The notes beneath the pieces were generated by a model. The model saw nothing but the letters and a program-made list of their open reading frames with translations, was not told where the DNA came from and did no database searches. From Afifella marina DSM 2698 (lineage in GTDB: Bacteria > Pseudomonadota > Alphaproteobacteria > Rhizobiales > Afifellaceae), in assembly GCF_900102695.1 (NCBI RefSeq), contig NZ_FMVW01000001.1:496001-560000 (forward strand): 64,000 nt of DNA, read 5' to 3'. The translations under genes and the position numbers were made by a program. Positions 25,232 through 46,426 of the stretch are shown here, one piece after another. Position 1 is the stretch's first letter. Each line of letters opens with the position of its first letter.

Positions 25232-25240
25232 GTGAATTCA

Positions 25241-25954: not shown

Positions 25955-25957
25955 GCC

Positions 25958-29168: not shown

Positions 29169-29272
29169 ACATCTGCAACGACGAGCGCGTCGACGCATAA
29201 GACGTGTGCAGGGGGCTGGAACGGCCAAGAAACGCGCCGGTGACGGTCGCGGCCAGGGAGGGGAGAAGCACC

Positions 29273-31654
29273 ATGGACACGGAGACAATCCGGCATCTGA
29301 AGGCGGTGGAGAAGGAGCTTTTGTGGCTCTCCTCCTGGATGATCCACCACGCCAACAATGTGCGCGAGAAGGATGCCGTGAAGGTCGGGGGTCACCAGGC
29401 CTCCTGCGCCTCCATGGCTTCGATCATGACGGCGCTCTACTTCCACGCCCTGCGCCCCGAGGACCGGGTGGCGGTGAAGCCGCATGCCTCGCCGCTCTTC
29501 CATGCGATGCAATATCTCATGGGCAACCAGACGCGCGACAAGCTCGAAGCCTTCCGCGGCTATGGCGGCGCCCAATCCTATCCGAGCCGCACCAAGGATG
29601 TGGACGACGTCGATTTCTCCACCGGCTCGGTCGGTCTCGGCGTCGGCATCACGGCCTTCGCCTCGCTGGTGCAGGACTACATCACCGCCCATAGCTGGGG
29701 CCGCGATGTGCCGCGCGGGCGCATGATTGCCCTCGTCGGCGATGCCGAGCTCGACGAAGGCAATGTCTACGAATGTCTGCAGGAAGGCTGGAAGCACGAG
29801 CTGCGCAACACCTGGTGGATCATCGACTACAACCGCCAGAGCCTCGACGGCGTGGTACGCGAAGGCTTGTGGCAGCGCATCGAGGCGGTGTTCCGCGCCT
29901 TCGGCTGGAATGTGGTGGTGCTGAAATACGGCGCCCTGCAACGCGCCGCATTCGAGGAGCCGGGCGGCGACCGACTGCGGGCCTGGATCGACACCTGTCC
30001 GAACCAGCTCTATTCGGCGCTCGCCTTCCAGGGCGGGGCGGCTTGGCGCAAGCGGCTGATGGACGATATCGGCGATCAAGGGGAGGTGAGCCAGCTTCTG
30101 GAGCGGCGCTCTGATGCCGAACTCGGCGAGCTCATGAACAATCTCGGCGGTCATTGCGTGCGCTCGCTCGCCGACGCCTTCGATGCCGTCAAAGACGATA
30201 CGCCGACGGTCTTCCTCGCCTACACGATCAAGGGCTGGGGCACACCACTCGCCGGCCACAAGGACAATCATGCCGGGCTGATGACCGGCGCCCAGATGGG
30301 CGAGCTCAAATCCGTCCTTGGTGTGGCCGACGGCGCCGAATGGGGGCCTTTCGCGACCTGTGGCGATGATCCGGAGCTCCGCCGCTTCCTGGCTGCAGTC
30401 CCTTTCTTCGAGAAGGGAACGCGCCGCTACAAGGCGAAGAAGATTGCAACGCCCGGGCCAATTCTTCTCGACGACAAGATGCTCTCCACCCAGGCGGGCT
30501 TCGGCAAGATCCTCGATGGCCTGGCGCGCGCCGGCTCCGAGATTGCAGATCACATCGTCACCACTGCCCCCGACGTCACGGTTTCGACCAATCTCGGCCC
30601 CTGGGTGAATCGCCGCGGCCTCTTTGCTCGCCGGGCGCTCTCCGACACGTTTCGCGACGAGCGCGTGCCCTCGGCGCAGAAATGGATCTTTTCGCCGGAG
30701 GGTCAGCACATCGAGCTCGGCATCGCCGAGATGAATCTCTTCCTGCTTTTGGGAGCCGCAGGTCTCTCGCATGCGCTGTTCGGCGAGCGGTTGATTCCGA
30801 TCGGTGCTGTCTACGATCCCTTCATCGCACGCGGGCTCGATGCTCTCAATTATGCCTGTTACCAGGATGCGCGCTTCCTCATCGTCGGCACGCCCTCAGG
30901 CGTGTCGCTGGCGCCGGAGGGCGGCGCGCATCAGTCGATCGGCTCGCCGCTCATCGGCATCAGCCAGGATGGGCTGGCGAGCTTCGAACCGGCCTTCCTG
31001 GACGAGCTCTCGGTGATCATGGATTGGGCCTTCGACTATCTGCAGCGCGATGGTGAAGGCGATCCCGACGAGCGGACCTGGCTGCGCGACGAGACTGGCG
31101 GCTCGGTCTATCTGCGGCTGACGACCCGGCCGCTGGAACAGCCGATCCGGCGCACCGACGAAGACTTCACGCGCGGTGTCATCGACGGCGCCTATTGGCT
31201 GCGTGAGCCGGGGCCCAACGCCGACGTGGTGCTCGCCTATCAGGGGACAGTCGCCCCAGAAGTGATCCAAGCGGCCGGACAATTGGGTGAGGGGCGGCGC
31301 GATATCGGCGTCCTTGCCGTCACCTCTGCGGACCGCCTCAATGCCGGTTGGACGGCGGCACAGCGCGCCCGCCGGCGCGGTCACCGCCATGCCGCCGGTC
31401 ATGTAGAAACGCTGCTGAAGCCTCTGCCGCGCCACTGCACCGTCGTGACAGTGACGGACGGACATCCCGCGACGCTTGCCTGGCTCGGTGCCGTCGCCGG
31501 TCACCGCACGGTGCCGCTCGGTGTGGAACATTTCGGTCAGACCGGTACGATCGCCGACCTTTACCGCCATTACGGCATTGACACGGCAAGCATCGTGGAG
31601 AGCGTGGCGGCGCTCACGCCCGGTCGTCAGATCCGCAGCGTGCTGACGAGTTGA
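29273..31654 (+). CDS. AceE-like thiamine-diphosphate enzyme (2-oxo acid dehydrogenase E1 / transketolase-like)
   Basis: A protein of 793 aa from ATG 29273 (GGAGGGGAGAAG upstream). The order of domains and motifs is that of homodimeric pyruvate dehydrogenase E1: GGHQASCASMASIMTALYF, the ThDP-Mg motif GDAELDEGNVYECLQEGW (about residue 160), the pyrimidine domain around HIELGIAEMNLFLLLGAAG with the cofactor-activating glutamate, and GGAHQSIGSPLIG. AceE is ~890 aa, so this is shorter. No E2 or E3 gene is in the window, so it may act as a decarboxylase or use shared E2. 104 bp separate it from the AhpD-like gene. Confidence 0.85.
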   Translation: MDTETIRHLKAVEKELLWLSSWMIHHANNVREKDAVKVGGHQASCASMASIMTALYFHALRPEDRVAVKPHASPLFHAMQYLMGNQTRDKLEAFRGYGGAQSYPSRTKDVDDVDFSTGSVGLGVGITAFASLVQDYITAHSWGRDVPRGRMIALVGDAELDEGNVYECLQEGWKHELRNTWWIIDYNRQSLDGVVREGLWQRIEAVFRAFGWNVVVLKYGALQRAAFEEPGGDRLRAWIDTCPNQLYSALAFQGGAAWRKRLMDDIGDQGEVSQLLERRSDAELGELMNNLGGHCVRSLADAFDAVKDDTPTVFLAYTIKGWGTPLAGHKDNHAGLMTGAQMGELKSVLGVADGAEWGPFATCGDDPELRRFLAAVPFFEKGTRRYKAKKIATPGPILLDDKMLSTQAGFGKILDGLARAGSEIADHIVTTAPDVTVSTNLGPWVNRRGLFARRALSDTFRDERVPSAQKWIFSPEGQHIELGIAEMNLFLLLGAAGLSHALFGERLIPIGAVYDPFIARGLDALNYACYQDARFLIVGTPSGVSLAPEGGAHQSIGSPLIGISQDGLASFEPAFLDELSVIMDWAFDYLQRDGEGDPDERTWLRDETGGSVYLRLTTRPLEQPIRRTDEDFTRGVIDGAYWLREPGPNADVVLAYQGTVAPEVIQAAGQLGEGRRDIGVLAVTSADRLNAGWTAAQRARRRGHRHAAGHVETLLKPLPRHCTVVTVTDGHPATLAWLGAVAGHRTVPLGVEHFGQTGTIADLYRHYGIDTASIVESVAALTPGRQIRSVLTS

Positions 31655-31715: not shown

Positions 31716-32807
31716 TCAGTCTTGCGGCTGCGCCAGGAGCCTGTCCCGCAGGCCGAGCATGTCCTCGCAGACGGCCTCGAGTGCCTGGACGTCGAAGCCC
31801 TGCGCATGGGCAAAGCCTTCGCGTTCCAGAAGCTCCGCGAGCCGCCCATGAAACACCGCCTTCGTCCCCTCCACGGTGAGGCCGCTTTGCGTCTCGAAGG
31901 CGTCGTTCCAGGCGACCGCCTCGTCCTCCGAGACACCGTTGGGCAAATCGAGCGATAGAGCGTCGCCCCGGAGTGCGACGGGATATCCGCCGGGCAGACC
32001 GTTCGGCCCCGGCACATGGCCCGACCAGGGAAGGCCGGCGGCAAGCGCCAGGATAAGCGTCACGCCGCTCGCCCCGGACACCTCGATGGCGGGTTCGGGC
32101 GTCAGGCGGACATCGGCGAAGGTGGCGAAGACGTCATCGATCTCGCTGTCGCCGACGAAGACGCGCGGGGCGGGAGCGCCTTTGCGGTCTTCCGCCTTGC
32201 GCCGCCACGGGGCAAGGCACTGATAATGCGCGAGCACCCGAAGGGCACCGTCACCGAGTGCGCCGCGAGCCTCCGCACCGTCGAAGACATTCGACAGGAT
32301 CGCCACATTGCCGGTGCCGCACAGGACGCGGTGGCCCATGGCGGCGATCAGGCCGTTCACGACGTCGGGAAACGAGCAGTTGATGAAATGCGTGCCCGGC
32401 GCGTTTTGGCTGATCGCGGCGGCCATGCGGCTGGAAATGAGTGCCTGAAAAATCGCCGTCGCGGACAGCCCGCCATCTGCGACGAGTTGACTCCAACGAT
32501 TGCCCGTTTGTGCGATCACGGCCGAGGTCTGGATCGACGCGGCCTGCACGACGATGCGCGGTGCGGCGATCTCCAGGATTTGCTCGCTCGCCGCCTCTTC
32601 AAGAAGGTCGAGCCGGTGTGTGACGACGCGCGCGGGTGTGCCGAACATGCGGGCACGGGCATTGCCGGCGGTGCGCAGCCAGTCGAGCCGCTCGGTGTTG
32701 CGGCCGGCGACCATGACGGTGACGGGGTGCTTTGCGGTTGCGGCGATATCGAGAACGATCCGGCCAGCGAACATGCCGGTTCCGGTCACCAGGACGTCGA
32801 CGCTCAT
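31716..32807 (-). CDS. Saccharopine dehydrogenase-like NAD(P)-binding protein
   Basis: About 363 aa. A Rossmann fold begins at once (MSVDVLVTGTGMFAGRIVLDI) and continues TVMVAGRNTERLDWLR, as in saccharopine dehydrogenase-like and related reductases. A later block reads SGASGVTLILALAAGLPW. No catalytic residues can be named with confidence, and substrate is unknown. ATG 32807 overlaps the acyl-CoA ligase stop in ATGA; the in-frame ATG further up (32843) lies inside the ligase gene. It is the last gene of a three-gene minus-strand operon with ligase and hydratase. Confidence 0.7.
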   Translation of the reverse strand: MSVDVLVTGTGMFAGRIVLDIAATAKHPVTVMVAGRNTERLDWLRTAGNARARMFGTPARVVTHRLDLLEEAASEQILEIAAPRIVVQAASIQTSAVIAQTGNRWSQLVADGGLSATAIFQALISSRMAAAISQNAPGTHFINCSFPDVVNGLIAAMGHRVLCGTGNVAILSNVFDGAEARGALGDGALRVLAHYQCLAPWRRKAEDRKGAPAPRVFVGDSEIDDVFATFADVRLTPEPAIEVSGASGVTLILALAAGLPWSGHVPGPNGLPGGYPVALRGDALSLDLPNGVSEDEAVAWNDAFETQSGLTVEGTKAVFHGRLAELLEREGFAHAQGFDVQALEAVCEDMLGLRDRLLAQPQD

Positions 32808-34423
32808 GGCTTTCTGCGCTCCGTATGGGTTGCACTGTCCCATCGGCCCTCGGGCGCTTGCGGGAGACGGTGTTTCTGAATCCGCTGGCTTGGCGTCTTT
32901 GGGAATTCCTCGACGAAGGCGATGTAACGCGGCCGCTGATATGGTGCGAGCCGGCCGGCAAGCCAGTCATGGAGCGTGTCGGGCTTCAGTTCGGAGCCCT
33001 TGCGCCGGACGATGAAGAGCTGAATGTCGTATTCGCCGACCTCGGCGGGCACGCCGACCATGGCGCATTCCTCGACGTCGGGATGGCGCAGGGCGACCGA
33101 TTCCACCTCATGGGATGAGACGTTCTCACCGCGGCACCGGATGCTGTCGCCCATGCGCCCGTGGAAGAAGAGGAGCCCGTCCTCGTTCCACGAGCCGAGA
33201 TCGCCGGTGTGGAAGCCATCGTCGCGCAGCGCCTTCGCCGTCGCTTCCGGGTTGCGGTAATAGCCCGGAAAAATCGCCGCTGGCAGCGACGTGTTCACGA
33301 TGATCTCGCCGCGTCCTTCGCCGGCGCCGAGCACCTTGCCGGCCTCGTCCTTCACCGTCACGGTGAACCAAGGCAGCGGACGGCCGACGGAGCCGACGGC
33401 GCCTTCGGTGTTGCAGGTCGTCAGGCTCGAGGATTCCGTCATGCCGTAGCATTCGCGGATCTCTACGCCGAAGCGATCCTCGAAGGCCTTCCAGACATCT
33501 GCCGGACAGCCGCCGCCCCAGGCGATCCGCACATCGTGGTCGCGGTCGAGCGGAGAGGGGGGCTGTTTCAGGAGAATCTGGATGATGCCGCCGAGATGGT
33601 GGATGTGCGTGCAGCCGGCTTCGCGCACATCGGCCCAGAAGCGGCTGGCGCTGAACCGGTCGCGCAACGTCAGAACGACGTCGTGCAGGAGCGGCAGTGC
33701 GATCACCTGCGCGCCGCCGATATGGTAGAACGGCTCCCAGACATAGAGGTTGTCGCCCGGCCTCAGCCCGGCGCAGAACGCCGCCGCCTGGGCCGACAAT
33801 TCCAGCATGGCATGCGTGACCATGACCGCTTTGGACGGGCCCGTCGTGCCTGAGGTGAACATCAAAGCGACGAGGTCGTCGGGGGCCAGAACGGGCTCTT
33901 GCAAGCTTGCGGCCTCGACTGCCGGCGGCAGCCCGGCCAAGGGCAGGATACCTTTCTCGGCTGTCGCGCCGCAGTGTTCGACGGTCTCCACGAGATTGGG
34001 ATCGCAGACCACGATCGCGGCTTCGACGAGCTTGATCGCATGAGCGAGCCCGTCGCCGACAAGGGCTGGATTGGTCGGAACCCAGATCATGCCGGCCCGC
34101 ATCAAGCCGAAGATGAGCGCCAGCGAGGCAGGGCTGTTGCGCATCATGACGATCACACGGTCGCCGGCCCGCACGCCTTGCGCCGAAAGATGCGAAATCA
34201 TCGCGTCAGCGCGCGACGATAGCTCGCCGAAGGTCAGCGGTCCTTCGGGCGTGTGCGCAAACACGCGTTCGGGCACGCGGTTGGACAGCTCGTTGAAGTT
34301 TTTCGCCAGGCCATGAATACGCACATCGGAGCTGGGCGCGGACATGCCGGCGCTCTGCGGCCCGGCCGGCCCCTGCGTGTTCTCGGGCGGCATGGCGCCG
34401 TCTGTCGTCGCGCCGTCTGTCAT
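32804..34423 (-). CDS. Acyl-CoA ligase (CaiC-like AMP-binding enzyme)
   Basis: A protein of 539 aa. AMP-binding motif MFTSGTTGPSKAVMVTH, A5 region CYGMTESSSLTTCN, A7/A8 GDLGSWNEDGLLFFHGRMGD and CRGENVSSHEVES. The C-terminal A10 motif is unusual: PKTPSQRIQK has arginine where the nearly universal catalytic lysine (GK) is expected, a feature I recall from some CaiC-like ligases. Subfamily resembles crotonobetaine/carnitine-CoA ligase. It lies 13 bp behind the enoyl-CoA hydratase gene; together they would activate and hydrate an unsaturated acid. Confidence 0.87.
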   Translation of the reverse strand: MTDGATTDGAMPPENTQGPAGPQSAGMSAPSSDVRIHGLAKNFNELSNRVPERVFAHTPEGPLTFGELSSRADAMISHLSAQGVRAGDRVIVMMRNSPASLALIFGLMRAGMIWVPTNPALVGDGLAHAIKLVEAAIVVCDPNLVETVEHCGATAEKGILPLAGLPPAVEAASLQEPVLAPDDLVALMFTSGTTGPSKAVMVTHAMLELSAQAAAFCAGLRPGDNLYVWEPFYHIGGAQVIALPLLHDVVLTLRDRFSASRFWADVREAGCTHIHHLGGIIQILLKQPPSPLDRDHDVRIAWGGGCPADVWKAFEDRFGVEIRECYGMTESSSLTTCNTEGAVGSVGRPLPWFTVTVKDEAGKVLGAGEGRGEIIVNTSLPAAIFPGYYRNPEATAKALRDDGFHTGDLGSWNEDGLLFFHGRMGDSIRCRGENVSSHEVESVALRHPDVEECAMVGVPAEVGEYDIQLFIVRRKGSELKPDTLHDWLAGRLAPYQRPRYIAFVEEFPKTPSQRIQKHRLPQAPEGRWDSATHTERRKP

Positions 34424-34436: not shown

Positions 34437-35210
34437 TCAGCGCTTGCGGCGCGCTTCGAAGAAAGCTTCCATCATGGCCTGCGGCTCGCCGGTTCCATAG
34501 GCTTCGACCTGGACGCGGACGCCTGAGTTCATGGCGTCATCGAAGCCGGCCTGCGTCACCTCGGCGATGCGCTGACGGTCGAGACGCATGGCGACGGGCG
34601 GCTTCGCGGCGAGAAGTTCGGCCAGTTCGAGCGCCGTCGCCTGGACCTCGTCCGCCGGCACGAGCCGGCTGATCAGCCCGAACGAGAACGCCTCTTCCGC
34701 CTCGATCATCCGGCCCGTCAATGTGAGGTCGATGGTGCGGGCGAGACCGAGATGCTCGCGCATGATCCAGTTGCCGGTGACCGTCGGAATGCCGGAATTG
34801 ATCTCCGGCTGTCCCATTTTGACGCCCGGATGCGCAACGCGCAGATCGCACAGAAGAGCCACCTGGAAAGCCGATCCGGCGGCCAGGCCATTGAGCGCTG
34901 CGATGATCGGCTTCGAGCCGAGGCGGAAGCGATTGTAGAGCGCCTTCCATTCGCCCATCCAGGTTTCGGCGCGGTCCGCGTCGAAGGTCTTGCTTTCGCT
35001 CAGATCCTGCCCCGCCCCGAAGGCACGGTCGCCGGCGCCCGTCAGGACGATGGCGCGAATGCCGGGATCGGCCTCGGCCTCGTCGAGGGCCTCGTTGAGC
35101 ATGTCACGCATCTGCGTGTTCCACGCATTGAGCTTGTCCGGCCGGTTCAAGGTGATGCGGCGGACTTGGCCGATTGTCTCGGTGAGGATGGAATCTGCCA
35201 TTGTATCCAT
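34437..35210 (-). CDS. Enoyl-CoA hydratase/isomerase family protein
   Basis: A protein of 254-257 aa. Crotonase features: ITLNRPDKLNAWN, oxyanion-hole segments AFGAGQDLSE and AALNGLAAGSAFQ, and the catalytic-glutamate region MGQPEINSGIPTVTGNW. ATG 35210 or ATG 35201 may be the start; neither has a Shine-Dalgarno sequence. The promoter predicted upstream would give a leader of only ~15-25 nt, and the operator ends 3 nt before ATG 35210. First gene of the operon with the acyl-CoA ligase. Substrate unknown; CaiD-like activity on carnitinyl-CoA is one option. Confidence 0.87.
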   Translation of the reverse strand: MDTMADSILTETIGQVRRITLNRPDKLNAWNTQMRDMLNEALDEAEADPGIRAIVLTGAGDRAFGAGQDLSESKTFDADRAETWMGEWKALYNRFRLGSKPIIAALNGLAAGSAFQVALLCDLRVAHPGVKMGQPEINSGIPTVTGNWIMREHLGLARTIDLTLTGRMIEAEEAFSFGLISRLVPADEVQATALELAELLAAKPPVAMRLDRQRIAEVTQAGFDDAMNSGVRVQVEAYGTGEPQAMMEAFFEARRKR

Positions 35211-35213
35211 TAT

Positions 35214-35261
35214 ATTGCAATAACTGTTATTGTAATAATGCAGCCGGCAGCGCTCTGTCAA
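35214..35261 (-). promoter_or_regulatory. Promoter and palindromic operator 1 (hydratase operon / IclR intergenic)
   Basis: On the minus strand TTGACA (35261-35256) is followed after 17-18 bp by TTATTA/TATTAC as -10. Overlapping the -10 and start point is the palindrome ATTGCAATA (35214-35222), 5 bp ACTGT, TATTGTAAT (35228-35236), one mismatch between arms. Such overlap fits repression. It lies 110 bp upstream of the divergent IclR gene. Confidence 0.72.
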
Positions 35262-35345
35262 CCAATGGGGGGCTACATGACGAGTGATCGCACTGGACGG
35301 CACGCCTTCAGGATGTAAAACGCTAACCGCGGATCAGGGGCTAAG

Positions 35346-36128
35346 ATGAGTACGCAGGCGCAAAAAGGGCGGAAAACCAACCCGCTGATGGTGCAGTCGG
35401 TTGCGAAGGCGTTTCGCGTTCTCCAGGCCTTCGATTCCAAGCATCCGTCGATGAGCCTGTCGGAGATCGCCGAGCAGACGAATATGGATCTGAGTGCCGC
35501 GCAGCGTTTCGCGTACACGCTCCAGCATCTCGGCTATCTGACGAAGAACCCGGTCACGCGGCAATTCTCTCTGGCCCTCAAGACACTCGATCTTGGCTAC
35601 AATTACCGGCAATCCTCGGAACTTGTCGGCCGTGCGATGCCTGTCCTTCAGCATCTCAGCAAGCAGACCGAGGAGACCGTCAATCTGACGATCCTCGACG
35701 GCACCGAGATCGTCTACATCGCCCGCATCCAGAGCCGGCATGTGTTGAATGCCGACGTGACCACCGGCACAAGGCTGCCGGCGTATTGTATGTCACCGGG
35801 GCGGGCGATCCTCTCGCAAATGAGCGAGGAGGACGCGCGCGCGGTGATCGCGAAATCGGATCTGCAGATGCACACGCCGGCGACGGTGACCGATCCTGAT
35901 CGGCTGATGCAGTTGATCGCCGAGGTGCGCGTGCAGGGTTACGCGGTCTGCTTCGAAGAGCTTTATCGGGGCGATGCCTCGATCGCTGCGCCGATCATCG
36001 GCCCCGGCGACAAGGTGACGGGTGCAGTCAGCATCGCCACCTCTTTGGCACGTTTTTCTCCTGAAGAAGTAACGGAAAACTACGCCAATCTGATCATTGC
36101 CGCGGGACGGTCTATCTCGATCCCCTGA
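35346..36128 (+). CDS. IclR-family transcriptional regulator
   Basis: A protein of 260 aa. N-terminal winged helix at about residues 15-80 (AKAFRVLQAF, SLSEIAEQTNMDLSAAQRFAYTLQ, GYLTK) and the C-terminal GAF-like effector domain (TEETVNLTILDGTEIVYIAR, AYCMSPGRAILSQ, GYAVCFEELYRGDASIAAPI). ATG 35346 has AGGGG 5 nt upstream. It lies between two divergent operons that both carry the same palindrome near their start, and is the obvious candidate for the protein that binds it. Confidence 0.93.
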   Translation: MSTQAQKGRKTNPLMVQSVAKAFRVLQAFDSKHPSMSLSEIAEQTNMDLSAAQRFAYTLQHLGYLTKNPVTRQFSLALKTLDLGYNYRQSSELVGRAMPVLQHLSKQTEETVNLTILDGTEIVYIARIQSRHVLNADVTTGTRLPAYCMSPGRAILSQMSEEDARAVIAKSDLQMHTPATVTDPDRLMQLIAEVRVQGYAVCFEELYRGDASIAAPIIGPGDKVTGAVSIATSLARFSPEEVTENYANLIIAAGRSISIP

Positions 36129-36178
36129 AAGCGTGAGGTTTCCGATGCCCCATGTCTGGGGCGCGAGCGAGGTCCTGC

Positions 36179-36231
36179 TTGACAGGGGCGTGGGCTGCGT
36201 TCAGCCTTAATGCAATAGATGTTATCGCAAT
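36179..36231 (+). promoter_or_regulatory. Promoter element and palindromic operator 2 (dehydrogenase operon of locus 2)
   Basis: TTGACA at 36179-36184; the -10 is poor. The palindrome is AATGCAATA (36209-36217), 5 bp GATGT, TATCGCAAT (36223-36231), agreeing with operators 1 and 3 in the inner CAATA/TAT core and in the 9-5-9 geometry. It ends 3 nt before the ATG of the ferredoxin subunit gene, the same distance as at operator 1. Confidence 0.65.
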
Positions 36232-36234
36232 GAA

Positions 36235-36549
36235 ATGACAGCATCCGCCGCGTCCTCTTCGGGGCTTTTCGTTCCGATCTACGAGGTCTCCACTGAGCTT
36301 TTCATCAGCCTCGACGGGCTTCGCATGCCGGCCCGGCGCGGCGAGACCGTGATAGCGGTGCTGCTCCGCAACGCGGCAGCTCTTGGCCGCTCAGAATTCG
36401 ATGGTCGTTCCCGCGCGGGTTTCTGTCTGATGGGCGCCTGCCAGGATTGCAGCCTTTGGAGCGAGGATGGGGGTCGCATCCGCGCCTGCATGACCATGGT
36501 GGAGGACGGCATGGCGCTGGTGACGGCGCCGCCGCTTGCCGAGACATGA
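36235..36549 (+). CDS. (2Fe-2S) gamma subunit of amine dehydrogenase (locus 2)
   Basis: A protein of 104 aa, a paralogue of the protein at 27060-27371. Ligands C-x4-C-x2-C-x12-C (FCLMGACQDC ... RAC). The N-terminus is longer and more variable than in the first copy. No Shine-Dalgarno sequence precedes the ATG because the operator palindrome occupies that place, so translation may start on a very short or leaderless mRNA. First of three dehydrogenase genes; here the order is gamma-alpha-beta. Confidence 0.87.
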   Translation: MTASAASSSGLFVPIYEVSTELFISLDGLRMPARRGETVIAVLLRNAAALGRSEFDGRSRAGFCLMGACQDCSLWSEDGGRIRACMTMVEDGMALVTAPPLAET

Positions 36550-36553
36550 TGCG

Positions 36554-37954
36554 ATGAGCGGCCCTTCCCAAGACGCTCCGCCCGTGATCGTTGGAGCAGG
36601 CCCTGCGGGTCTTGCTGCCGCCGGGGCCTTCGTCGAGGCAGGGATCCATCCGATCGTGCTCGACGAGTCCGACCGGCCCGGCGGCCAGGGCACACGACGT
36701 CTGACGCCTCTTCTTTGCGACAAGGCCGAGCCTCTCTTCGGGGCGCGTGCGTCGAGGCGCCGGCAGGAGCGCGAAGCACGGGAAGATCACATCCTGTCAC
36801 TTTGCGATTACCGCGCGAACACTGTCGTCTGGGGCGCTTTCGACGGAGGTCTTGAGCTCTTGAGCGGGGGGGCGTGTCAGGACTTGCGTTATGCGCATCT
36901 CCTTCTCGCGACTGGTGCGACCGACGCCATTCTTCCGCTGCCCGGCTGGACCTTGCCCGGCGTCTATTCGCTCGGCGGGGCGCAAGTGGCCTTGAAGCGT
37001 CACGGCAGCTTCATCGGCCGCAAGATCGTCTTCGCAGGTTTTTCGCCACTCCTTTATCTCGCTGCGGCCCAGTATTGCCGCCTCGGCCTGCGCGAGATCA
37101 CCGTCCTCGATACGACACCCTTACGCGGCAAGCTGCACGCCGCCATTGGCATGGCCAGATACGCAGCGGGAACGCTCCGCCAGGGTCTTTCGCTGATGGC
37201 GGAGCTGCGGCGGGCCGGCGTCCGTATTCGCGCGGCTGCGGAGCTTCTCGCAGTCGAAGGAAAAGACCACGTCGAAGCATTTCGTTTTCGCGACGCCGCC
37301 GGTCGTGAGGAACGTCTTGACTGCGACGCAGTGGCGATCGGCTTCGGGCTGCGGCCTGAGACGCAGCTGGCCGAGCTCGCCGGTGCTGCCTTCGAATTCG
37401 ATCCGGTGCTGCGGCACTGGTTTCCCCGCGTGTCGCCGGACGGGCAGGCCGGGCCGGCGTTGTGGATTGCCGGCGATGGCGCCCGCACGATGGGGGCGGA
37501 AGGTGCCCGTTTCGCCGGCCGCCTTGCGGCGCTCTCGATGCTTCAGGCAATGGGCCGCGGTGAAGCGGTGAAGTCGGATGAGATGAGGCGTTTGCGGCGG
37601 CGGCTTGAGCATGCGAGGCGTTTCCAGCTCGCGGCCGCGAAAGCCTTCCGGCTCCCCGGTGAGATGCTCTCGCGACTGCCTGGCGAGACGGTTTTATGTC
37701 GCTGCGAGCGCGTCACACTTGGTGAGGTCCGTGCGGCCGTACCACGGGCATCCGGTCCGGTGGAAGTCAACCGCGTCAAGGCGATCACCCGCTGCGGCAT
37801 GGGGCGCTGCCAGGGCCGTTATTGCGGCGTTGCGCTCGGCGAAGTGGTGGCGGAAGCCACGGGGCGCGATCTTGCAGAGGTCGGGCGCCTGCGAGCCCAG
37901 GCCCCGATCCGCCCGATCCCGATGTCGGCGGCGATGCGGGACGCCGCCGAATGA
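36554..37954 (+). CDS. FAD/NAD(P)-dependent oxidoreductase alpha subunit with BFD-like domain (locus 2)
   Basis: A protein of 466 aa starting at ATG 36554, 4 bp behind the ferredoxin stop. FAD motif IVGAGPAGLAAAGAF, then DRPGGQGTRR, dinucleotide region VFAGFSPLLYLAAAQYC and a C-terminal BFD-like [2Fe-2S] domain with CRC and CQGRYC. It is the paralogue of the alpha subunit at 27368-28780. In the second dinucleotide site the glycine pattern is altered (GFSPL against GCGPL in copy 1). Overlaps the beta subunit start in ATGA. Confidence 0.9.
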   Translation: MSGPSQDAPPVIVGAGPAGLAAAGAFVEAGIHPIVLDESDRPGGQGTRRLTPLLCDKAEPLFGARASRRRQEREAREDHILSLCDYRANTVVWGAFDGGLELLSGGACQDLRYAHLLLATGATDAILPLPGWTLPGVYSLGGAQVALKRHGSFIGRKIVFAGFSPLLYLAAAQYCRLGLREITVLDTTPLRGKLHAAIGMARYAAGTLRQGLSLMAELRRAGVRIRAAAELLAVEGKDHVEAFRFRDAAGREERLDCDAVAIGFGLRPETQLAELAGAAFEFDPVLRHWFPRVSPDGQAGPALWIAGDGARTMGAEGARFAGRLAALSMLQAMGRGEAVKSDEMRRLRRRLEHARRFQLAAAKAFRLPGEMLSRLPGETVLCRCERVTLGEVRAAVPRASGPVEVNRVKAITRCGMGRCQGRYCGVALGEVVAEATGRDLAEVGRLRAQAPIRPIPMSAAMRDAAE

Positions 37955-39150
37955 CCCGGCCGGCCGCCTTCGATGCGATGGTGATCGGGGCCGGTCTCTT
38001 CGGCGCCTTCTCCGCTTTGTTCCTGGCGCGCGCTGGCCTGAAAGTGGTGCTCCTCGAACGCGGCTTTGTCGGTGCGCAGTCGAGCGGTGCGAATTTCGGT
38101 GGCCTCAGGCTGCAGGGCCGTGATCCCGCTCAGTATCCCCTGGCGCTGCGCGCTCAGACCCATTGGGAAGGCTTCGTCGAGCTCGTCGGCGAGGATTGCG
38201 AGTACGACCGGGCCGGCCATGTCTATTTTGCCCGAACGCGCGAGGGCAGGGCAAAACTCCTGAAATATGCCGCGACCTCCGAAGCCTCTGGCCTCACGGT
38301 TGAAATCCTGGAAGGCAATGCGCTCCGCGCCCGGCTGCCCCTGCTCGCGCCCGAGATTGCGATCGCGAGCTATTCGCAGCGTTGCGCGACCGCCAATCCG
38401 CGGCTGGCGACACCGGCCGTCTGCCGAGCCTTCCTGCGGACGGGAGGCGTGCTTCACGAGGGATTTTCGGTCGCCGGGGTCGGGCATGAGCACGGGCTTT
38501 TCACGGCTGTCTCAGCGGACGGGCGGGTGCATTCTGCGCCCATCTTGGTGAATGCCGCCGGTGGCTGGGCCGGTGCTCTCGCCGCGACTTTCGGCGAGAG
38601 AGTCCCGATCTTCGCTGCCGGCCCCCCGCAATTCGTGACGGAGCCGCTGCCTTATATCCTGCGCCCCACCATTCAGGCCGTCGAAGGCGATGTGATCGTT
38701 CGCCAGATCCCGCGTGGCAACGTCATTTTCGCAGGCTATCCGCGCACGCGATCGACCTGCGACGGAAAGCACACCTTCGTGCCGCCGCAGAAGACCCGCA
38801 TGGGCATGGCGGCGCTCGTCTCCGCCCTGCCGGCCTTCCGCCACGCCGAGGTTATCCGAAGCTGGTCGGGCGTCGAAGGTTATCTGCCCGACATGCTGCC
38901 GGTCGTAGGACCGAGCGCGACGACAGAAGGCCTCTTCCATGCCTTCGGAGGAAGCGGCGGCGGCTTTCAGATCGCACCCGCCGTGGGCGAATGCCTGGCC
39001 GCGACCATCGTCGGCGAACCGCCGCCCACGTCGCTTCATCCGTACCGCATTGGCCGGTTCGATGGTCATCTCGAAGAGAGCGAGAAGCTCCTGACGGAGT
39101 TCGACCGCGCGGATGAGAGAGGCGCAGGCGAGGGCATCTTGGCGGGGTAG
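37951..39150 (+). CDS. FAD-dependent DAO-family dehydrogenase, beta subunit (locus 2)
   Basis: A protein of 399 aa from ATG 37951. FAD motif VIGAGLFGAFSALFLARAG, then GANFGGLRLQGRDPAQYPL, VNAAGGWAGALAATFG and the C-terminal GFQIAPAVGECLA block of the DadA/GlpD-like family. It is the substrate-oxidising flavoprotein of the second three-subunit complex. The open frame upstream of 37951 is out-of-frame coding of the alpha gene. Substrate may be a D-amino acid, imino acid or opine. Confidence 0.88.
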   Translation: MTRPAAFDAMVIGAGLFGAFSALFLARAGLKVVLLERGFVGAQSSGANFGGLRLQGRDPAQYPLALRAQTHWEGFVELVGEDCEYDRAGHVYFARTREGRAKLLKYAATSEASGLTVEILEGNALRARLPLLAPEIAIASYSQRCATANPRLATPAVCRAFLRTGGVLHEGFSVAGVGHEHGLFTAVSADGRVHSAPILVNAAGGWAGALAATFGERVPIFAAGPPQFVTEPLPYILRPTIQAVEGDVIVRQIPRGNVIFAGYPRTRSTCDGKHTFVPPQKTRMGMAALVSALPAFRHAEVIRSWSGVEGYLPDMLPVVGPSATTEGLFHAFGGSGGGFQIAPAVGECLAATIVGEPPPTSLHPYRIGRFDGHLEESEKLLTEFDRADERGAGEGILAG

Positions 39151-39303
39151 CAGGCCAAGATGCCCCTGCACTCCGGCCGCAACATGAGCATTTGCACGAA
39201 TTGCCGACAATCAGACTGGAGGCAAAGCTCCTGAGGTCGCTCGGCTTTCTGTGTGGCGCCTGTAAAATCTGCTCGCTCTTGCCGTTCCCGCGTGAGCTCG
39301 CGC

Positions 39304-39353
39304 TTGACAGGTCGGCCTCTGCTGGGGTTCATTTCAATAAGTACTATTGAAAT
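39304..39353 (+). promoter_or_regulatory. Promoter element and palindromic operator 3 (ABC importer run)
   Basis: TTGACA at 39304-39309 followed after 18 bp by a weak -10 (TTCATT). The palindrome ATTTCAATA (39331-39339), 5 bp AGTAC, TATTGAAAT (39345-39353) has perfect 9-bp arms, the best of the three copies. An extra half-site-like CCAATAGTAC follows directly. It is 446 bp upstream of the binding-protein gene. Confidence 0.7.
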
Positions 39354-39798
39354 CCAATAGTACAGTGTTCGGAGAGGGATCGTTTGGGCGACAGCCTGGT
39401 GATCGAATTGGCAGACGGCATCGGGCAGCTGACCCCGGCGCCGCCGCGCGACCATCGTCTGCCCCGGCGAGACGCGCCCGGCCGAACTTCGAGACGACTG
39501 GATACGCACTCCGCTCCCTCCCGGGATCAGCTGAGGCATTGCCGGAGCGACCGTAAAGGGCTTCGGGCGAGCGCGACGACGTCGACAGCACGCATGCCGC
39601 ATATCGCATGCCCGGACATGGCATCGCCGTTCTCTCCAGCGAGGGGCGAGTGGCGGATGACCCGGCCGGCCCGAGAGGTGGATAGCGCTTTTCTTCAAGA
39701 CGGGACTGCGTTTGGGCAGGCTCTCAGATCCCGCACACAGAACACCAGCAGCCTGTCCAGCCTATGAGCACGTCTCACGAGAGGAAAGGAACAGAACC
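39354..39798 (+). other. Long leader between operator 3 and the ABC importer
   Basis: The stretch 39151-39798 has no convincing gene. It holds operator 3 and then about 445 bp of leader. A TTG-started frame of 127 codons (39384-39767) has a very good Shine-Dalgarno sequence (GGAGAGGG, 6 nt upstream) and begins like a real protein (GDSLVIELADGIGQLTP), but after about 17 codons becomes Arg/Ser/Thr-rich and unlike natural protein. It may be a remnant of a gene or a leader peptide; no homology is recognised. Confidence 0.4.
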
Positions 39799-40863
39799 AT
39801 GCCGTTCAACAGGAAGATCTCCCGCCGCAGCATTCTCCTTGGGAGTGCGGCGAGCGTCGCCGTCAGTGCAGTCGGCCTTTCCATTCGCCCAGCGCGCGCC
39901 GCGGATTCCCTGACTGTCGCCGATCCCGGAGGCCCCTTCAAGGACGCCTATGGGGCAGCCTTCTACAAACCCTATGAGGAGAAGACGGGCCTTCAGATCG
40001 TCAACGTCGCCCGCGAGCACCAGCCGACGAGCCAAGTTCAGGCGATCGTCGACACCGGCAATTACAGCTGGGACGTCGTCACGATCACTCAGGGCGACGA
40101 GGTTCTCCTGCATGACCGCGATCTGCTTGAGCCCCTCGACTGGGATCTGGAGCATATGGGCGACATCATGAAGGAGGCGAGGGCGCCCGACTGGATGGGT
40201 GTCGACGTCTACGCCACGATTCTCGCTATCCGTTCCGACCATTTCAAAGACAAGAAGCCATCCTCGTGGGCGGATTTCTGGGACGTCGAGAACTTCCCCG
40301 GCCGGCGTGCGCTGCGTAAGAGTCCGATCGATACGCTCGAGATCGCGCTTCTCGCTGACGGCGTGACGCCGGACGAGCTCTATCCGCTTGACCTGGATCG
40401 GGCCTTCAAGAAGCTCACCGAGATCCGCCCGGATATCGACGTGTGGTGGACGGGCGGTGCCCAGACGAGCCAGATGCTGCAATCCGGCGAGGTCGACATG
40501 CTGCCGACCTGGAACGGCCGCGCTCAGACCGTCATCGACGCGGATGGCACCGTCGAGATCGTCTGGAACCAGGGGCTCTATTCGATCGAAGGCTGGGCAA
40601 TCCCCAAGGGCAGCCCCGCCAGCGACGAGGCCAAGAAGTTCATCGCCTTTTGTGCCGATCCGAAGCGCCAGGCCGAATACACGAAGACGCTGGCCTACGG
40701 GCCGACGAATCCGAAGGCCTACGACTACATCCCGCCGGAGCGGGCGAAGTTTCTGCCGACTGCGCCTGCGCATTTCGACAAGCTCATTCTCGCCAGCCAG
40801 GAATGGTGGGGTGAGAACAAGGAAGAGGCGGAACAGCGCTTCAACGAGTGGCTCCTGTCCTGA
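39799..40863 (+). CDS. Polyamine/opine-type ABC transporter substrate-binding protein
   Basis: A protein of 354 aa of SBP family 8 (PotD/PotF-like). A twin-arginine signal (ISRRSILLGSAASVAVSAVG) ends at ARA-A. The mature protein starts LTVADPGGPFKDAYGAAFYKPYEE and contains WWTGGAQTSQMLQSGEVDM and the closing region EQRFNEWLLS typical of polyamine-type binders. ATG 39799 has GGAAAGGA upstream. Ligands in the family include polyamines, opines and other cationic amino compounds. A 12-bp hairpin follows directly. Confidence 0.88.
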   Translation: MPFNRKISRRSILLGSAASVAVSAVGLSIRPARAADSLTVADPGGPFKDAYGAAFYKPYEEKTGLQIVNVAREHQPTSQVQAIVDTGNYSWDVVTITQGDEVLLHDRDLLEPLDWDLEHMGDIMKEARAPDWMGVDVYATILAIRSDHFKDKKPSSWADFWDVENFPGRRALRKSPIDTLEIALLADGVTPDELYPLDLDRAFKKLTEIRPDIDVWWTGGAQTSQMLQSGEVDMLPTWNGRAQTVIDADGTVEIVWNQGLYSIEGWAIPKGSPASDEAKKFIAFCADPKRQAEYTKTLAYGPTNPKAYDYIPPERAKFLPTAPAHFDKLILASQEWWGENKEEAEQRFNEWLLS

Positions 40864-40870: not shown

Positions 40871-40900
40871 CCGTCCTCCCGCCTCTGTGCGGGAGGACGG
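40871..40900 (+). terminator. Intercistronic hairpin after the polyamine-type binding-protein gene
   Basis: A perfect 12-bp stem CCGTCCTCCCGC/GCGGGAGGACGG with a 6-nt loop, 7 bp after the stop. The strongest of the three such structures; not followed by a T-run, so partial termination is expected. Confidence 0.7.
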
Positions 40901-40922
40901 CCCCCTATCCAAGGTTTCCTTC

Positions 40923-42029
40923 ATGAAGATGGCTGACGGTTCGTCAAACTCCGATTCGCTGAAGCTCGAAGTCCGCAACCTCCGCAAGACTTTTGGAGAG
41001 TTCGTGGCGCTCGAGGGAGCCTCCGTCGAGGTCCGCGCCGGCGAATTTCTTACTCTTCTCGGCCCTTCCGGCTCGGGCAAGACGACACTCCTCCTGGCGA
41101 TCGCGGGTCTCAACGAGCCCGACAGCGGCGAGATCAGGATCCATGGCGATCTTGCGACGTATCTCCCACCGTATCAGCGCGACATCGGCATGGTCTTCCA
41201 GAACTATGCTCTGTTTCCGCACATGACGATCGGCGAGAACATCGGCTTTCCGCTGCGCATGCGCCGCTGGTCGGCCTCGAAAATCGACGAAGCGGTGAGC
41301 CGGATTTTGGACGTCGTGCAGCTTCCCGGCACGGAAAACCGTTATCCTCGCCAGCTCTCAGGTGGCCAGCAGCAACGCATCGCGCTCGCCCGCGCCCTCG
41401 TCTACGAGCCGTCGATCGTCCTCATGGACGAACCCCTGGGTGCGCTGGACAAGAAGCTGCGCGAACAGCTCCAATACGAAATCAAGCGTCTGCACGAGCG
41501 TCTCGGTCTCGCCATGCTCTACGTGACGCATGATCAGGAAGAGGCGCTCGTCATGTCCGATCGCATCTGTCTGATGCGGCAGGGTAGGATCGAGCAGATC
41601 GGCACGCCCGAAGAACTCTATTTCCGCCCGAAAACCCGCTTCGCCGCCGATTTTCTGGGCGAATCGAACCTTCTCGAAGGCGAAGTAATCGGCTTCCAAG
41701 ACGGTATCTGCGAGGTCGCGCTGAATGACGGTCGTCCCGTACGTGGTCCGACCACCACGAAGCTGAATGTCGGCGACAAGGCGGTCGTGATGATCCGCCC
41801 CGAAGCCATCCGCATCAATGCGGCAGAGGCAGGCGCCAATTCCGTCACTGCCACCTTCATCGAGGCCGTTATGACCGGCGGGACGACGAAGTGCTTCTTC
41901 GAGGGTCATCAGGGGCAGCAGCTCAAGGCACAGATCCTCACCGGCCAGCCGCGCGACGGCCTTGCTCCCAACAAGGAAGCGGTTCTCTCCTGGGAACCCG
42001 ATTCCTGCGTGGTGCTGGCCCATGACTGA
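40923..42029 (+). CDS. PotA-type ABC transporter ATP-binding protein
   Basis: About 368 aa from ATG 40923 (ATG 40929 also possible). Walker A GPSGSGKTTLLLAIAGL, Q-loop FQNYALFPHMT, signature LSGGQQQRIALARALV, Walker B SIVLMDEPLGALD, then a C-terminal TOBE-type regulatory domain (VMIRPEAIRINAAEAGANS). The family energises uptake of polyamines and related cations. The stop overlaps the permease start. Confidence 0.92.
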   Translation: MKMADGSSNSDSLKLEVRNLRKTFGEFVALEGASVEVRAGEFLTLLGPSGSGKTTLLLAIAGLNEPDSGEIRIHGDLATYLPPYQRDIGMVFQNYALFPHMTIGENIGFPLRMRRWSASKIDEAVSRILDVVQLPGTENRYPRQLSGGQQQRIALARALVYEPSIVLMDEPLGALDKKLREQLQYEIKRLHERLGLAMLYVTHDQEEALVMSDRICLMRQGRIEQIGTPEELYFRPKTRFAADFLGESNLLEGEVIGFQDGICEVALNDGRPVRGPTTTKLNVGDKAVVMIRPEAIRINAAEAGANSVTATFIEAVMTGGTTKCFFEGHQGQQLKAQILTGQPRDGLAPNKEAVLSWEPDSCVVLAHD

Positions 42030-43839
42030 CATGTCCAGCTCTGCGGCGCCGCCGCCCGCTCCTGCGCGTCCACTTGGCCGAGCGCTTGCGACGTTGCGCG
42101 GCAGCTGGCCTCTTATCCCGGCGGCCCTCTTTCTTGCCGTCGCCTTCGTCTATCCGGTGGCGCTGTTGCTCGGACGCAGCTTCGTCGGCTCCGATGGCGG
42201 GCTCAGTGCGGAAAACTATGCCCGCCTTGGCGAATCCACCGTCGTTGTCCGGGTGATGCTCATCACCTTCAAGATTGCCGGCTGGACGACGCTCTTCGCC
42301 ATCATCGCCGGCTATCCGATCGCTTATCTGCTGGCAACTTTGCCTGCCAGTCGGCGCAATCTCCTGGCGATCTTCGTTCTGATGCCGTTCTGGACGAGCT
42401 TCCTCGTCAGAACCTTCGCCTGGATTGTGCTTCTCGGGCGCAACGGTGCGCTCAACCAGTTGCTTCAGGTGCTCGGTGTTAGCGATCCGCCGTCGTTTCT
42501 CTACCAGTTCTCCGGTGTCATGATCGGCATGGTGCATGCGCTGATGCCGCTTTGCGTGCTCACCATGCTGTCCGTCATGGAAAATATCGACAAGCGTCTC
42601 ACCGATGCGGCGGGAACGCTTGGCGCTCGGCCGGCAGCGGCCTTCTGGCGGATCTATTTTCCGCTATCCCTGCCAGGCGCCGCGGCGGGCGGGCTCCTCG
42701 TCTTCATCACCTCGCTCGGTTTCTTCATCACGCCGGCTCTCCTCGGCAGCGAGCGTGAGACCGTCATCGTCCAGCTCGTCATTTTCCAGATCAAGGAGAT
42801 GCTGAATTGGGGCTTCGCCGGTGCGATCGCGATCATGCTTCTCGTCGTCGCGCTCGTCATCTTCTACATCTACGACCGGCTCGTCGGCCTTTCGACGCTT
42901 TCGGGTGGCGATGTGCGAGGGGGAGCCTCGTCGCGGAATCCTCTCTCTTGGCTCGGTTCGAAGGTTGGCAATCTTCTCCTGACGGCGATCTCGGAGGTAT
43001 CCGACGCCATTGGCCGCGCGCTGGGTGCCCTCATGCCGGCCCGGCCGGACCGCAAGCCGCGCCGCATCGGCGGTAAGGTTTTACGCTTCGTCGCGCTCGC
43101 CGGTATCGCCTTCCTCGCCGTTCCGGCCTTCTTCGTCGTCCCGGTCTCGTTCAGCGAATCCCAGTTCCTCACCTGGCCACCGAAAGGCTTTTCGCTGCAA
43201 TGGTACCGCGAGGTCTTCGACAATCCCCTGTGGATCGGTGCGGCCTGGCGCTCCTTCGTCGTCGCTTTCAGCGTCGCCGTGGTGGCTCTCATGCTCGGCG
43301 TCCCTGCGGCCTTCTATTTGGTCCGGCGCGCCCGACGCACGACCGCCATCATGGCGTTCCTGATCTCGCCTCTGATCATGCCGCATATCATTATCGCGGT
43401 GGCGCTCTTTTATCTCTTCGCGCAGATCGGTCTCGTCGGGACGACCATCGGCCTCATCATTGGCCATACGGTCCTCGCCATTCCCTATGTCGTCGTGACG
43501 GTTGTCGCGGTTCTCAAGAACTACGACATCCGGCTCGATCATGCCGCCTCGACTCTCGGGGCGAACGGCGTGCGAACCTTCCTCAACGTGACCTTCCCGC
43601 TGATCCGTTCCGGTCTCATCGCCGCCTTCATGTTCGCCTTCATCATCTCCTTCGACGAGCTGACGATTTCATTGTTCGTGACGGGTGGACAGGTCACCAC
43701 CTTGCCGAAGCAGATGTGGGACGATGCGCTCCTGCGTGTCAGCCCGGCGCTCGCAGCCGTCGCGACGCTCATCCTCGCCTTCATGACGGCGGTGATCCTC
43801 GGTTCGGAGATCCTGCGCAGGCGCGGCGTTGCCAAATAA
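42022..43839 (+). CDS. Fused two-domain ABC permease (PotB-PotC type)
   Basis: A protein of 605 aa from ATG 42022, overlapping the ATPase stop by 8 bp. It contains two permease halves in one chain. The first (residues ~25-290) has the EAA loop DAAGTLGARPAAAFWRIYFPLSLPG, and the second (~350-605) DHAASTLGANGVRTFLNVTFPLIRSG. A polar linker with DRKPRRIGG separates them. In most relatives PotB and PotC are separate genes, so this is a gene fusion. Together with the neighbours it forms a complete importer. Confidence 0.9.
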   Translation: MTDMSSSAAPPPAPARPLGRALATLRGSWPLIPAALFLAVAFVYPVALLLGRSFVGSDGGLSAENYARLGESTVVVRVMLITFKIAGWTTLFAIIAGYPIAYLLATLPASRRNLLAIFVLMPFWTSFLVRTFAWIVLLGRNGALNQLLQVLGVSDPPSFLYQFSGVMIGMVHALMPLCVLTMLSVMENIDKRLTDAAGTLGARPAAAFWRIYFPLSLPGAAAGGLLVFITSLGFFITPALLGSERETVIVQLVIFQIKEMLNWGFAGAIAIMLLVVALVIFYIYDRLVGLSTLSGGDVRGGASSRNPLSWLGSKVGNLLLTAISEVSDAIGRALGALMPARPDRKPRRIGGKVLRFVALAGIAFLAVPAFFVVPVSFSESQFLTWPPKGFSLQWYREVFDNPLWIGAAWRSFVVAFSVAVVALMLGVPAAFYLVRRARRTTAIMAFLISPLIMPHIIIAVALFYLFAQIGLVGTTIGLIIGHTVLAIPYVVVTVVAVLKNYDIRLDHAASTLGANGVRTFLNVTFPLIRSGLIAAFMFAFIISFDELTISLFVTGGQVTTLPKQMWDDALLRVSPALAAVATLILAFMTAVILGSEILRRRGVAK

Positions 43840-43952: not shown

Positions 43953-45263
43953 GTGACATTGGCTGACGCAAGAGGGACCGCGCCCGGCCCGACGGAAAAG
44001 CCTCTCCGCACTGTCGTGATCGGTGCTGGCATCGTTGGGATTTTTTGCGCCCTGGAGCTCCAGGAGGCCGGTCACGACGTGATCCTCGTCGATTGCGGCC
44101 CTCCGGGAGGCGACCAGGCGGCTTCATACGGCAATGGCGCATGGCTCAGCCCAGCCTCGATCATGCCGATGTCGGTTCCGGGTTTGTGGAAAGAGGTGCC
44201 GGGCTATCTCGCCGATCCTTCCGGCCCCTTCGTCATCCGCTGGCGCCACCTGCCGTCGCTTCTGCCCTGGCTTGTCCGCTTCCTGCGCGCCGGCAGCAGC
44301 TGGCGCAAGGTCGAGGTCTGTGCCGCGCATCGTTACCGGCTGTGCCGCAGCACAGTGGACTGGCATCTGAAATGGGCGCGGTCAGCCGGCACCGAGCATC
44401 TTATCGCCCGCGAAGGTGTCTGGTTCCTCTATCGCGACCGCTCCGACATCGAGCGCGAGGCGCGAGAATGGAAGATGCGCAAGGAACTCGGCGTCCGCTT
44501 CAGCGAACATGATCGCGCAGCGCTGATCGAGCGGGAGCCGGCCCTGTCAACGGAATACGGCTTCGGCATCCGGGTCGACGAGGGGGCCTTCATCCGCGAC
44601 ACGCGTAGCTATTGCGAAGGCCTTGTGGCGCATTTCTGTGCCGAAGGCGGCCGCCTCGTCCGCAGCACCGCCCGCAGCTTCAAGATGGCCGATAGCCGTC
44701 TCACGCATGTGGTGAGCGACGACGAAAGCATCGCCTGCGACCGCGCGGTCATCGCCGCCGGTGCCTGGTCGGCCGAGCTCGCGCGCCAGGCGGGCGACAA
44801 TGTTCCGCTGATCTCCGAGCGCGGCTATCATGTGGTCCTGCCCAGCGTCATCGGCCATCCGCCGATGTCGGTCATGCCGGCCGACGGAAAGATGGCGGTC
44901 ACGCCGACGAACCGTGGCTTGCGTATCGCAGGGCAGGTCGAACTCGCTTCGCTCCATGCCCCGCCAAACTGGCGCCGTGCCGACATCCTCCTCGCCTTCG
45001 GCAAAAAGCTGCTTCCCGGCCTCCCGGGGGTGCAGTCTCCCGATCGCGTGGAGCGCTGGATGGGCCACCGGCCGTCGACGCCCGACGGGCTACCTTCGAT
45101 CGGCGCGGCCTCGGATTGCGCCGATATCGTGCACGCTTTCGGCCATGGGCATTCCGGTATGATCCAGGCACCGGCGACGGCGCAGATCGTCTCACGTCTC
45201 CTGGCGGCCGGCGTGGTCTCCCCGGAGGACGAGGCTTTCTCTCCGCGGAGATTTGGCGCGTGA
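43953..45263 (+). CDS. DadA-like FAD-dependent D-amino acid dehydrogenase
   Basis: A protein of 436 aa, with GTG 43953 as the best but weakly supported start. FAD motif VVIGAGIVGIFCALELQEAGH, then YGNGAWLSPASIMPMSVPG, which is the DadA signature, and the C-terminal WMGHRPSTPDGLPSIG and HAFGHGHSGMIQAP. It oxidises D-amino acids or cyclic imino acids to the 2-oxo or imino acid and passes electrons to the respiratory chain. GTGA overlap with the cyclodeaminase homologue suggests the two act on the same compound. Confidence 0.9.
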   Translation: MTLADARGTAPGPTEKPLRTVVIGAGIVGIFCALELQEAGHDVILVDCGPPGGDQAASYGNGAWLSPASIMPMSVPGLWKEVPGYLADPSGPFVIRWRHLPSLLPWLVRFLRAGSSWRKVEVCAAHRYRLCRSTVDWHLKWARSAGTEHLIAREGVWFLYRDRSDIEREAREWKMRKELGVRFSEHDRAALIEREPALSTEYGFGIRVDEGAFIRDTRSYCEGLVAHFCAEGGRLVRSTARSFKMADSRLTHVVSDDESIACDRAVIAAGAWSAELARQAGDNVPLISERGYHVVLPSVIGHPPMSVMPADGKMAVTPTNRGLRIAGQVELASLHAPPNWRRADILLAFGKKLLPGLPGVQSPDRVERWMGHRPSTPDGLPSIGAASDCADIVHAFGHGHSGMIQAPATAQIVSRLLAAGVVSPEDEAFSPRRFGA

Positions 45264-46264: not shown

Positions 46265-46426
46265 GGACTTGCGGAACTGTCCCGGATGGGCGGACCGTCG
46301 ATCGTTTCAGTCTGGCCAAAGCTTTCACCTCATGACGGCTCTTGCCCTTGGCAAGCGGGCATGTCGTAAGGAGGCATGGCCACTGCATCGCCCGATTACA
46401 TCAAGAACACGCGGAGAATTCATTCC

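Follow-up and report, generated by a model that had tools for sequence, protein, structure and literature searches.

Introduction

Operators composed of three boxes of alternating direction have been predicted for 32 orthologous groups of IclR-family regulators, and PcaU, PobR and HmgR were earlier three-box cases, the third box being needed for the binding of PcaU, according to Suvorova and Gelfand 2021 (PMC8222616). In the present study, a locus of Afifella marina DSM 2698 was analyzed that contains an IclR-family gene (iclR) and three copies of one palindrome, each of them ahead of an operon. The locus lies in a stretch of 64,000 nucleotides (assembly GCF_900102695.1, contig NZ_FMVW01000001.1, positions 496,001 to 560,000), which is called the window in the following and within which all coordinates are numbered. 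The first operon starts with an enoyl-CoA (coenzyme A) hydratase/isomerase gene (ech), the second encodes a Fer2/FAD/DAO dehydrogenase (FAD, flavin adenine dinucleotide), and the third encodes an ATP-binding cassette (ABC) transporter, a DadA-like oxidoreductase, an ornithine cyclodeaminase-family protein (OCD) and an aldehyde dehydrogenase (ALDH). Comparison with related genomes indicated that the three sites are very probably binding sites of the adjacent IclR protein.

The locus shares with the PcaU, PobR and HmgR systems a regulator of the same family and alternating boxes about one helical turn apart. In the terms of PMC8222616, its TATYG-N5-CRATA pair corresponds to the group 1 arrangement and its CRATA-N5-TATYG pair to the group 2 arrangement, and the box TATYG differs, compared by eye, from the GTTCG-like box listed there for PcaU and others. 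The genes are also different, i.e., ABC uptake, CoA ligase/hydratase and flavin dehydrogenases instead of 4-hydroxybenzoate, protocatechuate or homogentisate genes, and, in contrast to PcaU-type operators, a good third box is present at one of the three window sites only. Among the open-access papers listed for the pathway, the motif and Ochrobactrum IclR regulons, none was recognised as dealing with this regulon.

By domain content, the second and third operons can be likened to opine-oxidase-like heterotrimeric flavin dehydrogenases, with which the Fer2, FAD/BFD and DAO subunits are in common, and likewise the OCD protein and the ABC transporter. Dehydrogenases of this kind are OoxAB/NoxAB and HcnABC. 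Unlike in these systems, the set in the window is linked with an acyl-CoA ligase and an enoyl-CoA hydratase.

Results

Three Palindromes, Each Downstream of a TTGACA Hexamer

The palindromes at 35214-35236, 36209-36231 and 39331-39353 had 0, 2 and 0 mismatches, respectively, to the consensus ATTnCAATA-N5-TATTGnAAT. A preliminary description of the window had reported these sequences and positions, perfect arms of the third palindrome, and a TTGACA hexamer at a distance of 19-24 bp from each palindrome. All of this was borne out when the window was re-read, the distances being 19, 24 and 21 bp. The 9-5-9 consensus given there holds for sites 1 and 3, whereas site 2 departs from it at two bases. 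The hexamers are candidate -35 elements of the promoters of ech (35256-35261, minus strand), of the Fer2/FAD/DAO operon (36179-36184, plus strand) and of the ABC/DadA/OCD/ALDH operon (39304-39309, plus strand).

The 9-5-9 palindrome equals two boxes, A and B, together with their flanks, but a third half-site, box C, had been overlooked. Operator 1 (35208-35232, minus strand) is located 6 bp before the start codon of ech and consists, in the minus-strand reading, of box A CAATA, box B TATTG and a degenerate box C TAATG. Operator 2 (36213-36237, plus strand) contains CAATA, TATCG and a degenerate box C AAATG. In operator 3 (39335-39359, plus strand) all boxes are perfect (CAATA, TATTG and CAATA), with box C at 39355-39359, 10 bp further on. 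Site 3 is the only operator of the window with three good boxes, and it is perfect also in L023, an orthologous locus of the same genus.

The consensus with at most three mismatches has a chance expectation of 0.03 per window, and three matches were present in none of 100 shuffles. When each of the three intergenic regions was shuffled with its dinucleotides kept, a match as good as the observed one arose in 0 of 3000 cases. In the whole genome (3,963,421 bp in 24 contigs, 99.73% complete), at most three mismatches were found at three places only, which are the three window sites, and the reversed pattern, used as a control, matched two places. Another explanation would be that the palindromes represent AT-rich promoter or start-site sequence without any regulator, as they coincide with the expected -10/start regions in a window with a guanine plus cytosine content of 63%. 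However, a fourth place within three mismatches is missing in 3.96 Mb, local 60-bp shuffles equalled the observed match in only 0, 2 and 0 of 5000 cases at sites 1, 2 and 3, the boxes recur across genera at 10-bp spacing, and the second site is absent in two loci without the Fer2/FAD/DAO operon (see below). Chance or AT-rich promoter sequence was set aside on the basis of the genome-wide scan and the shuffles, and such an origin of the palindromes is considered to be extremely improbable.

Conservation of the Operators at Orthologous Loci

Close orthologues of the IclR protein, with identities of 51-56%, were found in Falsochrobactrum (three), Brucella (two, former Ochrobactrum) and Bosea (two), and further close orthologues in five genomes that belong to the same order but to other genera than the window. 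The distribution is patchy: a close orthologue is encoded in 7 of 397 genomes of the order, two of the seven being the own genome and G002, in two of five genomes of the window's genus and in 2 of 11 genomes of its family, both in that genus. In 385 genomes drawn from the class, no IclR orthologue was detected at E <= 1e-75 apart from that of the own genome.

In all 12 loci from other genera ech (63-79% identity) adjoins iclR in divergent orientation, and operators were found ahead of it in 12 of 12 cases. The Fer2/FAD/DAO operon is located 3' of iclR in 10 of these loci, and operators precede it in all ten; the other two loci, L026 (G322) and L028 (G239), lack the operon and also the second operator. 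A relative of the FAD/BFD subunit at E <= 1e-60 was detected neither in G322 nor in G239, and both genomes had exactly one match at E <= 0.01 to the operator model described below, namely the ech operator. The second site is thus absent where Fer2/FAD/DAO is absent, as would be expected if it belongs to that operon.

The remaining genes are arranged differently in the relatives. The genes for the substrate-binding protein (SBP), ATPase and permease are located between ech and the ligase gene in 11 of the 12 other-genus loci, the exception being L028. In L014 and the three Falsochrobactrum loci, DAO is succeeded by DadA and OCD, in L017 it is succeeded by pieces of DadA only, and in G133 the DadA and OCD genes are placed after the gene for a conserved 375-amino-acid protein of the first operon. 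The aldehyde dehydrogenase was matched in L023 alone among the 13 loci. Most genes of the three-site set stand under two sites in the relatives, while in the window and also in L023 the ABC, DadA, OCD and ALDH genes stand apart as one run that carries site 3. In the 12 other-genus loci, neither the ABC nor the DadA genes were found to have a site of their own (model, E <= 5, default filters, stretches as fetched), and all model matches at this threshold fall at places flanking iclR.

The conservation beside iclR also bears on the identity of the binding protein. The window encodes a further regulator, a GntR/FCD protein (20011-20763), and the operators of GntR-family proteins are often short AT-rich palindromes, so that such a regulator could bind operators that merely neighbour iclR. 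Relatives of this protein at E <= 1e-30 are encoded in five of six genomes tested, and one relative is near iclR in L028 (32% identity) and one in L024 (27%). However, an operator is present beside iclR in all 13 orthologue loci, while a GntR relative occurs in 2 of the 13 stretches, both of them weak, and the best relatives (35-45%), in G133, G208, G300 and G322, are encoded elsewhere in the genome. In addition, the blind model matches of G106 and G100 are located close to genes of the IclR family. The GntR/FCD protein was set aside as the binder, being rarely near iclR in the orthologue loci, and is regarded as an unlikely candidate.

A Common Layout of Three Alternating Boxes

In the direction of transcription, the operators share a TTGAC(A/G) hexamer followed by CRATA-N5-TATYG-N5-CRATA, with boxes of alternating direction. 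In 26 of the 27 operators measured, which leave out L023_DOWN, TTGAC(A/G) lies 23-31 bp before box A, and in one it lies 36 bp before it. The mean information per column in 22 other-genus sites was 1.04, 1.61 and 1.35 bits for boxes A, B and C, compared to 0.70 bits for the spacers and 0.60 bits for the flanks, and in 1000 shuffles no mean over five columns exceeded 0.35. The TAT of box B and the ATA of box C are invariant in these sites. Three alternating boxes with a 10-bp period were found for the orthologous group, 3 of the 22 sites having no recognisable box A. The boxes are not equally well preserved throughout: of the five ech operators of Brucella and Falsochrobactrum, four have a perfect box C and a box A with a single deviating base; the window's genus has almost perfect boxes A and B, and a poor box C at two of its three sites.

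The position of the boxes bears also on the direction of regulation. The nearest curated subfamily of the IclR protein is PcaR/PcaU/PobR, albeit under the cutoff, and this subfamily includes activators; moreover, the three-box layout resembles the operators of PcaU and PobR. It could therefore be envisaged that the IclR protein binds the sites and activates, or acts both ways. However, activators usually bind upstream of or at the -35 element, and in 27 of the 27 operators measured TTGAC(A/G) precedes the boxes, which occupy the place expected for the -10 element and the start point. Activation or dual action is viewed as a minority possibility, clearly less probable than repression.

Genome Scans with an Operator Model

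The 22 other-genus sites, which had been chosen for resemblance, were used to construct a model based on sequence only. In the own genome this model yielded five matches at E <= 10, all of them on or overlapping the three window sites, i.e., site 2 (E 7.9e-4), site 3 (0.0095), site 1 (0.032) and two shadows (0.11 and 3.0). In G002, which belongs to the window's genus and is outside the model, the same three sites were found with E-values of 0.0028, 0.0049 and 0.075. The three other genomes of the genus, all without a close orthologue, had no match at E <= 0.01.

At E <= 0.01 and with stricter filters, 14 of 397 genomes of the order had a match. These were all seven genomes with a close orthologue, five of which had supplied training sites, and 7 of the 390 others. 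Co-occurrence of the motif with the IclR orthologue and conservation upstream of orthologous genes (ech, 12 of 12; Fer2/FAD/DAO, 10 of 10 with the operon) were the checks proposed in the preliminary description for its candidate IclR regulon; both were found, and the comparison across relatives supports the predicted regulon.

Three of the seven matching genomes without a close orthologue were inspected (G106, G100 and G021; left out were G196, G259, G317 and G321). In the two best of the seven the match is close to an IclR gene. It is 0.1 kb upstream of one with 41% identity in G106, and in G100 it belongs to a cluster in which an IclR gene (42%) is 1.6 kb away and which also encodes DadA, two relatives of ech and the same ABC transporter (61-73%). 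Weak extra matches were observed in G322 C29, where no protein of the window has a relative nearby, and in G106 C1, where one has (34%).

A further weak match (E 0.05), in G322 C26 (L062, around position 5163), has another IclR gene (38%) at a distance of about 1.5 kb and, beyond this gene, genes for an SBP and a permease. This is a hint of a box common to related IclR proteins.

The Regulator and the Genes of the Three Operons

The regulator gene (35346-36128, plus strand) encodes a protein of 260 amino acids with the domains HTH_IclR (Pfam, 5.2e-15) and IclR_C (6.8e-44), which scored 55.4 bits and 149.9 bits and, thus, above the cutoffs of 22 and 24, respectively. Its best NCBIfam model was TIGR02431 (PcaR/PcaU/PobR), which covered residues 15-257 of 260. 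As its score of 230.8 bits is below the curated cutoff of 284.75, the protein was not filed as a member of this subfamily.

The first operon is on the minus strand. It comprises ech (34437-35201; Pfam ECH_1, 6e-44), a gene for an acyl-CoA ligase that forms adenosine monophosphate (32804-34423; AMP-binding, 1.7e-64) and the gene for the conserved 375-amino-acid protein (31716-32843), which has a Rossmann-like N-terminal part by weak matches. For this last protein, no Pfam match above cutoff was found, and there was one PDB sequence match with an E-value of 1.3. Matches at E <= 1e-15 are present in 11 of 397 genomes of the order, the own genome being one of them, and an HxPGPxGLxGGYP motif is invariant in 11 aligned sequences. 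The AlphaFold model (predicted local distance difference test score 88) may resemble malate and lactate dehydrogenases, but only loosely, as the Foldseek matches shown, mostly to these enzymes, had template modelling scores of 0.44-0.53 only (query length). Because the Pfam, PDB and Foldseek matches are absent or weak, the protein was given no function.

The second operon (plus strand) encodes a 2Fe-2S subunit (36235-36549; Pfam Fer2_4, 4e-20), a subunit with FAD, BFD-like 2Fe-2S and sarcosine-oxidase A3 domains (36536-37954; Pfam) and a DAO-family FAD oxidoreductase subunit (37954-39150; DAO, 6.3e-58). The third operon, also on the plus strand, starts with the SBP gene (39712-40863; SBP_bac_8, 1.4e-47), whose best NCBIfam match was PotD with 53 bits, far under the cutoff of 582. 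It is followed by genes for a PotA/PhnT-type ATPase (40887-42029; NCBIfam matches under the cutoffs), a permease with two BPD_transp_1 stretches (41962-43839), a DAO-family, DadA-like oxidoreductase (43953-45263), a protein of the ornithine cyclodeaminase/mu-crystallin family (45116-46264) and an aldehyde dehydrogenase, named ALDH7 in the preliminary description, which was assigned at the level of the Pfam family Aldedh (46376-47929; 6.7e-128). The real starts of the permease and OCD genes are probably later.

About 350 bp (39360-39711) separate operator 3 from the SBP gene. Patches of this stretch are conserved in L023; it contains an open frame without a Pfam match and is perhaps a leader or a gene remnant. 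A transketolase/pyruvate dehydrogenase-E1-like protein of 816 amino acids is encoded at 29204-31654 (plus strand; Transketolase_N, 3.9e-13), convergent with the gene for the 375-amino-acid protein. A separate set at 22257-29168 (plus strand) encodes NMT1-like and DctM transporter proteins, an Asp/Glu racemase-family protein, and DAO, Fer2, FAD/BFD and CMD proteins, and no match to the operator model was found there. However, a racemase relative is encoded close to iclR in L028, and one adjoins the genes for the ligase and the 375-amino-acid protein in G150.

Discussion

By sequence comparison, the motif, its conservation, its placement relative to TTGAC(A/G), and its link to this IclR protein and to these genes are established. 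From these we infer binding, repression and relief of repression. In the mechanism that is considered to be probable, the IclR protein would bind the three operators, each over the expected -10/start point of a TTGACA-type promoter, and would repress the leftward ech-ligase-375-amino-acid operon, Fer2-FAD-DAO, and SBP-ATPase-permease-DadA-OCD-ALDH. The operator unit would comprise up to three alternating boxes, one per helical turn, as in PcaU-type operators. The pathway substrate or a derivative would probably bind to the C-terminal domain of the IclR protein and lift the repression.

Several observations weigh against this assignment. At site 1, box C matches at just three of five bases (TAATG, 35208-35212, on the transcribed strand), and likewise at site 2 (AAATG, 36233-36237); in the genome-wide scan site 1 had an E-value of just 0.032. 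The second sites of L015 and L016 (Bosea) and of L027 are weak, with boxes B and C only, and their strict scores were 9, 9 and 10 of 15, compared to 8 for the next best in the same stretch. The orthologue loci are related and do not represent independent lineages, and the matches on training sites are by construction, because those sites had been picked for resemblance. Seven genomes without a close orthologue had a match, when about 3.9 would be expected from the E-value, and in G021 none of the window's proteins is encoded near the match. In G150 (61% complete) the ligase, 375-amino-acid protein and racemase relatives are encoded together, but that stretch lacks an iclR relative, and in G150 the model had no match at E <= 0.01. 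A further point is that the recognition-helix region (S-x-x-QR) is common also to IclR paralogues whose loci yielded no good site, so that this region alone does not account for the specificity (L017 was omitted from the protein alignment, as its iclR match comes in two pieces). Lastly, it is from a single property, the operator position, that we infer a repressor rather than an activator.

With regard to function, the operons may serve the uptake of an opine-like compound (N-substituted amino acid or amine), its oxidative cleavage and the delivery of an acid part for activation with CoA. The proposed substrate, an opine- or amine-like N-substituted acid, is a guess, more weakly founded than the circuit itself; it was made because a flavin dehydrogenase, OCD, an aldehyde dehydrogenase and a transporter occur together with a CoA ligase and a hydratase.

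The different preservation of the boxes allows a more tentative suggestion. It is conceivable, although rather doubtful, that the orthologous group shifted which box pair carries the operator. If true, the same regulator would have two alternative dimer arrangements on the DNA that differ by promoter or lineage, and the separated ABC/DadA/OCD/ALDH operon would have gained its own operator with all three boxes.

Taken together, the regulatory circuit is well supported but ordinary, and it fits the known three-box design with a different box sequence. Sequence evidence joins three operons into one predicted regulon. This narrows the search for the substrate, as the compound that releases the IclR protein is probably identical with the one taken up by the ABC transporter and degraded by the dehydrogenase and CoA ligase set. 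The operators with different boxes intact would form a small natural set for testing the alternative dimerisation that has been proposed for IclR proteins.

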